The notes below the pieces were generated by a model. It saw nothing but the letters and a program-made list of their open reading frames with translations, was not told the origin of the DNA and did not search any database. Positions 31,509 through 34,105 of a DNA stretch of 64,000 bases are shown here, piece by piece (within the stretch, counting starts at the first letter, position 1; the number at the start of each line of letters is the position of its first letter). Origin of the DNA: Acidobacteriota bacterium (GTDB lineage Bacteria > Acidobacteriota > Terriglobia > Terriglobales > Acidobacteriaceae); NCBI GenBank assembly GCA_013289795.1, contig JABCZH010000007.1, forward strand, positions 1 to 64,000. Direction: 5' to 3'. The position numbers and the translations under genes are program-made.

Positions 31509-32366
31509 CTAGCGCCAATCATCCCGTACCGCTGCTTGGGCGGCGATGACGGACTCAAAACCAACATGTTTGCGTACCAGGATCTCGCCGAACAGGCGGT
31601 CCTGTCGCAACTGGATTGCCTGCAATCGTACCAGTTCCAGCAGCGCCAGGAACATGCAAACCAGCGTCTGGCGGGATTCGATGTTGCGCAGCAGCAGTTT
31701 CAATCGGATGGGCCGGTCTTCCAGCGCCAGCCGCCGCCGCAGGTATTCGATCATCTGGCTGACTGTGACCGTCTCCTCGTCCACCTGAATCATGGGGCGA
31801 TGGCGGGCGCGATCCAGGATTACCTGGAATGTCTTGACCAGGTCAATGACGTCGGCCGCGATCTCTGGCTCTGTCCCCTCGGCGTCCATAAATTCTTTGA
31901 TCGCCGGGTTTGACCAGACTGCGTCTTCGATCTGCTGCTTCTGCATCAGCATCTGCGCGGCAGACTTGAACTTTTCATGTTCGATGAGCCGGTTGACCAA
32001 CTCTGCCCGCGGGTCTTCTGCTTCTTCCGAACCAACCGCCGGATCACGGGGCAACAGCATCTTCGACTTGATGTGGATCAGTACCGCTGCCATGTAGATG
32101 AAATCGGCGGCGATGTTCACATCCAGCTCGCGAAGTTTCTCGACGTAAGCCAGATATTGGGCTGTGATCTTGGCGATAGGAATGTCGTAGATGTCGATGT
32201 CTTGCTTGCGGATCAGATCGAGGAGCAGGTCGAGAGGACCCTCGTAGACGTCGGTAACGGCGACGGAGAAAGGCGAGTCGCTTTCTTTCTTCTGCGGAAC
32301 GGGAGAATCTGGCAGCGCGGTCTGTGCCAGTGCATTTGCCCCCGCGGTTTGGAAAATGTTTGGCAT
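31509..32366 (-). CDS. scpA: Segregation and condensation protein A
   Basis: A 285-aa kleisin subunit of the bacterial SMC complex. The N-terminal motif YEGPLDLLLDLIRKQDIDIYDIPI and the following helices ADFIYMAAVLIHIKSKMLLPRD bind the SMC neck; the C-terminal winged helix (about 215-275) binds the SMC cap. A roughly 35-residue leader precedes the conserved part. The order trpS-scpA-scpB-rluB on one strand suggests one transcript. Confidence 0.94.
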   Translation of the reverse strand: MPNIFQTAGANALAQTALPDSPVPQKKESDSPFSVAVTDVYEGPLDLLLDLIRKQDIDIYDIPIAKITAQYLAYVEKLRELDVNIAADFIYMAAVLIHIKSKMLLPRDPAVGSEEAEDPRAELVNRLIEHEKFKSAAQMLMQKQQIEDAVWSNPAIKEFMDAEGTEPEIAADVIDLVKTFQVILDRARHRPMIQVDEETVTVSQMIEYLRRRLALEDRPIRLKLLLRNIESRQTLVCMFLALLELVRLQAIQLRQDRLFGEILVRKHVGFESVIAAQAAVRDDWR

Positions 32367-32381
32367 CGGTCCACTACTTTG

Positions 32382-33422
32382 CTAACGGCCCTCGTAATCC
32401 AGCGACATGTGTAATGCGTCCCGAACTTCCGCCATGGTGGCCGACGCTACCTTGCCAGCCTTGGCGGAGCCTGCCTCAAGAATATCCCACGCCAGCCGCG
32501 GATTGTCTTCGTATTTCTTGCGGCGCTCCTGCATGGGGACAAGAATGTTAACCAGGGCGTCCGCCGCCCAGCCCTTGCATTCGATGCATCCGATGCCCGC
32601 CGAACGGCACCCGGCGTTCACTTTGGCCATGGTGGTGGAATCGCTGAAGATCTTATGCAGGTCGCCCACCGGGCAAACGTCGGGATTGCCGGGGTCGGTA
32701 CGGCGGATGCGGGCCGGATCGGTGACCATGGTCTTCAACTTCTGCCGTACCACTGGTTCGGGATCGGTAAGCATGATGGTGTTGCCGTAGGACTTCGACA
32801 TCTTGCGGCCGTCGGTGCCTGGGAGCTTGGGGGTGCGCGTCAGCAGCGGCTGAGGCTAAGGAAAAACGGCCTTTCCGTTGAGATTGTAGAACTGATTGAA
32901 GCGGCGGGCGATCTCGCGGGTTAGTTCCACGTGCGGCACCTGATCTTCGCCGACCGGCACGAAGTCACCTTTGTAGATGAGAATGTCAGCGGCCTGGAGC
33001 ACGGGGTAGCCCAGAAAGCCGTACGTGCCCAGGTCTTTCCCGGCGATATTCTCCCGCTGTTCTTTGTAGGTCGGCACCCGCTCCAGCCAGCCTAGGGGCG
33101 TGATCATCGAGAACAGCAGATGCAACTCGGCGTGCTGGGGCACGTGCGATTGAATGAACATGGTGCAGCGTTCGGGATCGAGTCCGGCCGCCAGCCAGTC
33201 CAGTAATACTTCTATCGAATTCTCTTTCACGTGCGCGGTGTCGGCGTAATCCGTGGTGAGCGCGTGCCAATCGGCCACGAAGAAAAAGCATTCATACTGG
33301 TCCTGCATGCCGACCCAGTTTTGCAGGGCGCCGACGTAGTTACCGAGGTGCAGCTTGCCGGTGGAGCGCATACCGCTGAGGACGCGTTTGCGAGCGTGGG
33401 GTGAGGGCATCGGACTCGTCAT
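32382..33422 (-). pseudogene. trpS: Tryptophanyl-tRNA synthetase interrupted by an in-frame amber codon
   Basis: One frame encodes a full-length class I TrpRS of 346 codons plus stop, but codon 189 is TAG (32858-32856). The HIGH-type motif TGKLHLGN (21-28) lies before it and KMSKSYGN (207-214) after it. Homologues have a glutamate here (FPEPQPL), so a single G-to-T change would explain the stop. A protein ending at codon 188 would lack the KMSKS loop and should be inactive. Possible explanations are a real nonsense mutation with a second trpS elsewhere, amber suppression, or a sequence error. No frameshift is present. The gene overlaps the M50 protease gene by 4 bp and is followed by scpA. 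Confidence 0.9.
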
Positions 33423-34105
33423 GATGGCGCCATGGACAGCAAGGCCGCGCTGAACGCACCAATCACCGGACCGATCAAGCGGCCGAGAAGCCCTGGGGCT
33501 AGATACACCAGCGCCATCAGGCCGAAAATTCCCGCCATGTCGTAGACCTGCCGCACTCGCTCGGGCAGGAAATGACGTAGTACGTGACTCCCGTCAAGTG
33601 GGGGCACAGGGATCAGGTTGAAAACCCCCAGCACAACGTTGATGATCATAAGGTCGTAGAGAAGCAGATCTACCGGAACAAACAGGGAGTCGCTGGCCAT
33701 GTAACCATTGACAACTCCGTGCAGGACTGGCCAACCGCCGGGCGCAAGGAAAGCAAGACCGCCCAGAACCAGCACCGTGGCAGCGGCAACCAGGAAATTA
33801 CTGGTAGGCCCAACCACTGCAGTTAGTATGTCGTCCAGAACCGGATTCTTGAAATTGCGTGGGTCCACAGGAGTGGGTTTTGCCCAGCCCAGCAGGGGAA
33901 AATGTGTCACCATCGCGATCAGTGGCAGGAGGATCGTCCCGACAGGGTCGATATGCTTGATGGGATTCAGGCTGATTCGTCCCAGCATTCGGGCGGTGGG
34001 GTCGCCGCGGCGGTTGGCCATCCAGGCATGCGCCGATTCGTGAAAGCTGATCGCGAACAAGAACGCGATCACTTTGAAGAAAATGTCAACGTGTTGCAGG
34101 GTCAT
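33419..34105 (-). CDS. Site-2-protease-family (M50) intramembrane metalloprotease
   Basis: A 228-aa membrane protein with H22-E23-x2-H26 in FHESAHAW, the GPTSNF segment and D171 in PVPPLDGSH, which together form the zinc site. This short form (no PDZ domain) is the YwhC/Rv-type S2P homologue often encoded beside trpS and scpA. It may cleave anti-sigma factors or other membrane proteins. Substrate unknown. It overlaps trpS by 4 bp. Confidence 0.93.
   Translation of the reverse strand: MTLQHVDIFFKVIAFLFAISFHESAHAWMANRRGDPTARMLGRISLNPIKHIDPVGTILLPLIAMVTHFPLLGWAKPTPVDPRNFKNPVLDDILTAVVGPTSNFLVAAATVLVLGGLAFLAPGGWPVLHGVVNGYMASDSLFVPVDLLLYDLMIINVVLGVFNLIPVPPLDGSHVLRHFLPERVRQVYDMAGIFGLMALVYLAPGLLGRLIGPVIGAFSAALLSMAPS

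Follow-up and report, generated by a model that had tools for sequence, protein, structure and literature searches.

Does the amber codon inside the tryptophanyl-tRNA synthetase gene (trpS) of a soil Acidobacteriota bacterium belong to the living organism or to its assembled sequence? The question arises from a stretch of 64,000 nucleotides, here called the window, that comprises positions 1 to 64,000 of contig JABCZH010000007.1 (contig C7) in assembly GCA_013289795.1. The assembly totals 4.67 Mb in 33 contigs and is 99.91% complete and 1.41% contaminated. The nearest named relatives of the genome are metagenome-assembled Terriglobia/Acidobacteriaceae. The TAG is quite probably a one-base substitution in the assembled sequence that the living cells do not carry in fixed form: a sequencing or consensus error, or else an allele that is rare or dying out.

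A TAG codon interrupts the trpS frame

The trpS frame occupies 32382..33422 on the reverse strand and has 346 codons followed by a terminal stop that is also TAG (32384-32382). It was identified with TIGR00233, PF00579 and solved relatives of tryptophanyl-tRNA synthetase (TrpRS). Translation from 33422 to 32382 gives a TrpRS with a single in-frame TAG at 32858-32856, codon 189 of 346, in the context ...GKAVFP*PQPLLTRTPKLPGTDGRKMSKSYGN... The frame read through the TAG matches the TIGR00233 profile with 303 bits (cut-off 176.75) across model positions 2-326 of 328, and a match of this extent with the TAG inside it excludes a chance frame. The HIGH-type and KMSKS motifs are both present, as KLHLGNYVG and GRKMSKSYGN. 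The TAG lies between them, with HLGN before and KMSKS after, where a sequence-only reading of the window had placed it. The near whole-model similarity, the two motifs, the VFPEP loop and the adjoining scpA-like gene, which neighbors trpS in 77 of 80 fetched loci, are all features of bacterial TrpRS (TIGR00233/PF00579). The window differs from this family in that its frame is broken at codon 189. No report of a stop codon in trpS was found among the literature matches listed.

Codon 189 encodes glutamate in all fetched relatives

Codon 189 was compared in 109 fetched relatives, made up of 80 loci kept of 231 and 29 loci from a survey of 61 genomes; 98 of the sequences are distinct. All 109 relatives have Glu at this codon (GAG in 76, GAA in 33) and none has TAG, which confirms the sequence-only claim that the stop replaces a conserved Glu codon. 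The nearest relative, the metagenome-assembled genome (MAG) SbA1, is 95% identical in protein and 82-83% identical in DNA around the gene. SbA1 has GAG at codon 189, so the window TAG is one base from the codon of its nearest relative. The solved TrpRS 2g36 has VFPEP at the place matching codon 189.

The survey of 61 genomes includes the window's own and holds a clear trpS in 58 others. Outside the 58 are two incomplete genomes, G050 with no trpS match and G048 with a weak match only. None of the 58 has an internal stop in trpS. The stops flagged in trpS of G057, G052, G031, G043 and G046 all stand where the gene naturally ends, and the two-piece matches in G012, G021, G034 and G055 proved on fetching to have frames open from end to end. 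An in-frame insertion of variable length was seen between residues 180 and 192, just ahead of the place of the TAG, in G012, G021, G031, G034 and G055, and all five frames are open there. Conserved programmed read-through involves a stop common to orthologues, and no such stop is present in the 109 relatives or the 58 genomes.

Both sides of the stop look constrained

The effect of the stop on the rest of the gene was assessed at strongly conserved columns of the alignment (at least 97% among the 98 distinct relatives; n = 153). The window deviates at codon 189 alone, and the median sequence among the 98 deviates at one of the 153 columns. Codon differences between the window and SbA1 were 50 synonymous and 9 non-synonymous in the 182 codons ahead of the stop, and 33 synonymous and 6 non-synonymous in the 157 codons past it. 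On the window's own branch, defined with four relatives as outgroups, there were 12 synonymous changes and 1 non-synonymous change before the stop, and 8 and 1 after it. The excess of synonymous change, alike in both halves, and the sole deviation at codon 189 argue against decay of trpS; judged from these codon comparisons, both halves look to be under purifying selection. The sequence-only reading had likewise described both sides as in frame and conserved, and the column comparison and the profile match bear this out. The apparent lack of decay and the open frames of the neighboring genes suggest that the stop is either new or absent from the organism.

A one-base error or rare allele probably accounts for the TAG

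Very recent decay, read-through and error had been put forward as explanations on the sequence alone. The list was a fair one; most of its options are now weakened, which leaves an error or a rare allele as the most likely. trpS is essential, and we know of no alternative route to Trp-tRNA. A consensus error or rare allele is the best reading because the gene is essential and no rescue was found, and it is more likely than unusual decoding of trpS. The TAG is thus most likely not a genuine biological feature. We infer that the base of the living population at codon 189 differs from the assembled base, in which case the living lineage would make an ordinary full-length TrpRS.

Two points weigh against an error or rare allele. 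The genus set consists of this genome alone. In addition, errors of this kind are uncommon in the assembly, as indicated by a search for other interrupted genes. The window and twenty 20-kb stretches were sampled (464 kb, ~10% of the genome), and 1001 candidate internal stops, each flanked on both sides by 60 or more open codons in frame, were ranked. Two of the 40 top-scoring candidates belong to trpS, the internal TAG in second place and the terminal stop in fourth. Inspection by eye of the remaining 38 revealed none that reads as an interrupted protein; they look like chance frames or like a gene end with a further gene behind it, and one is a truncated transposase ahead of another gene. 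A stop inside the matched domain was likewise found in none of 52 ABC-ATPase (PF00005) matches. These clean candidates and matches are the basis for regarding such errors as uncommon.

Read-through of the amber codon

The strongest of the competing explanations, although an unlikely one, is a real and fixed TAG whose read-through yields sufficient full-length TrpRS, either by near-cognate decoding or by a suppressor tRNA that lies outside the assembly or was overlooked. The lack of decay on either side of the TAG is in keeping with such decoding. Belinky et al. 2021 (PMC7918605) report that many bacterial genes under purifying selection contain in-frame stops, most of which they judge short-lived. 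The window stop resembles the stops they describe in that it lies in a gene with apparent purifying selection on both sides and no sign of decay, but it differs in being seen in one genome only and in none of the fetched relatives.

The translation machinery and the use of TAG in the genome argue against read-through. Reassignment of TAG goes with a lost or weakened release factor 1, and the prfA gene on contig C10 is predicted from its sequence to be intact (534.4 bits, cut-off 423.25, no internal stop). TAG was the commonest stop of the long frames sampled: among 228 stop-to-stop frames that do not overlap and have at least 250 codons, it terminates 98. These frames were taken as genes by length only. 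Efficient suppression would therefore be costly, since many genes would be extended. Recoding would also be expected to recur, and no second interrupted gene was seen among the 38 best-scoring other candidates or the 52 PF00005 matches. The window shares with amber reassignment or suppression a TAG at a conserved sense codon; it differs in having prfA, TAG as a frequent terminator, and no suppressor tRNA or other recoded gene found among those inspected.

An amber suppressor tRNA, raised as a possibility in the sequence-only reading, was sought with the RF00005 profile at two thresholds (E<=0.001 and E<=5), with ARAGORN anticodon assignment and with a pattern of CTA plus a T-loop. The stricter threshold gave 42 tRNA genes; the looser one added four weak places, none of which is a tRNA by ARAGORN. 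The anticodon CTA is absent from the 42 genes, in a tRNA inventory that is incomplete. The pattern matched 8 places (27 in the reversed control), and none is a CTA tRNA; one of the eight is tRNA-Arg(tct) read out of register. One intron-bearing tRNA hidden from RF00005 was found, a tRNA-Leu(taa) with a group I intron on contig C4, and its anticodon is not CTA. A search with RF00028 returned only that place, at 41.6 bits and below the cut-off of 50; at the same loose threshold, 8 of 14 control genomes had matches, two of them with matches above the cut-off. Rfam at gathering score gave no match in three C4 stretches. Loosened ARAGORN settings applied to 57 kb made 29 calls (-ps90 with introns) and 56 calls (-ps80), including one Pyl(cta)-like stretch. 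These calls were treated as noise, the Pyl(cta)-like stretch among them, because ARAGORN at ordinary settings finds no tRNA in those stretches.

The completeness of the tRNA set was judged against G032, a single-contig relative that has Leu(taa), Leu(tag), Lys(ctt) and Pro(cgg), none of which appeared in the first search here. tRNA-Leu(tag), which is required for CUA codons, was also absent from the hits of a DNA similarity search of the assembly, which matched two other Leu tRNAs best. The first tRNA search, the only one to cover Lys(ctt) and Pro(cgg), found neither. All three of these tRNAs are probably lost in assembly gaps. The method has a blind spot, since it found no Ile tRNA either in the window's genome or in G032, which served as control. 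The missing Leu(tag) means that genes may be absent from the assembly, and a suppressor tRNA may sit in such a gap. A narrower form of read-through, in which a fixed amber codon in the sole TrpRS gene is read through at a low level and the supply of Trp-tRNA is throttled by termination efficiency, is highly improbable.

A second trpS or a split enzyme

It is very unlikely that the interrupted copy is a freshly dead duplicate of an intact trpS hidden in an assembly gap. The assembly is divided into 33 contigs, and the missing tRNA-Leu(tag) indicates that the gaps may contain genes. Nevertheless, the assembly is nearly complete, and searches of all 33 contigs with PF00579, TIGR00233 and protein queries found no second trpS: TIGR00233 has one match and none other at E<=1. 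The other PF00579 match, a 417-residue protein on contig C5, was read by eye as TyrS. The second trpS suggested in the sequence-only reading was thus not recovered, and within the assembly trpS occurs only once. The interrupted copy also adjoins scpA, as most fetched loci do.

A precedent for two copies is offered by the SbA1 MAG (OMOD01), which carries two trpS loci (L034 and L088) that are 95% and 79% identical to that of the window. Because both loci adjoin scpA, however, the SbA1 bin probably holds two organisms. In the survey, no other genome has two matches that each span the whole TrpRS.

The chance of a split TrpRS, with each half made on its own and the two then joining, is negligible: both parts are open and conserved, but the N-terminal part (188 codons, 32856..33422, reverse strand) holds HLGN and stops short of KMSKS and the C-terminal region, the first in-frame start codon past the stop (ATG, GTG or TTG) is the Met of KMSKS itself, so that the C-terminal part (139 codons, 32382..32801, reverse strand) would lack the first Lys of the motif, no ribosome-binding-like sequence was seen by eye ahead of that Met, and a stop-split trpS occurs in none of the 58 other genomes. 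A 188-residue chain of this kind and a restart only at the KMSKS Met make a useful split enzyme unlikely.

Neighboring genes and other tRNA loci

The genes that flank trpS in the window are open frames. Upstream is an M50-family peptidase gene (33419..34105, reverse strand; PF02163), whose end overlaps the start of trpS at its ATG by four bases and which adjoins trpS in 45 of 80 fetched loci. Downstream is the scpA-like gene (31509..32366, reverse strand).

The tRNA search also drew attention to putative mobile DNA elsewhere in the assembly. An element of ~35.6 kb at C4:322788-358436 interrupts a tRNA-Leu(taa) in its anticodon loop, and the joined flanks restore tRNA-Leu(taa). The element carries an integrase-like gene (322960-324246; PF13102 at 22.1 bits, just below the cut-off of 22.3), a gene for a conjugative coupling protein (352961-355996; PF02534) and a ParA-like gene (357223-357879). 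The intron-bearing tRNA-Leu(taa), with its below-cut-off RF00028 match, lies just within the left end of the element (C4:324294-324623). It is as if the element had brought a replacement tRNA-Leu(taa) whose target site the intron hides. The 3' part of the interrupted tRNA-Leu recurs at C4:358507, 128 bases past its first copy, perhaps as the trace of an earlier integration. Near the end of contig C11, 28 bases (147089-147116) exactly match the 3' part of the contig C2 tRNA-Arg(tct). No tRNA was called there, and the stretch is perhaps the remnant of an attachment site.

What the amber codon would mean

If the TAG is an error or a rare allele, as is probable, its consequence is one of caution only. 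Automated annotation would call trpS a pseudogene and so imply the absence of TrpRS, which is unlikely. A TAG that was real and fixed, by contrast, would make an essential synthetase with a single gene copy dependent on read-through or on an unseen suppressor, which would be a striking exception.
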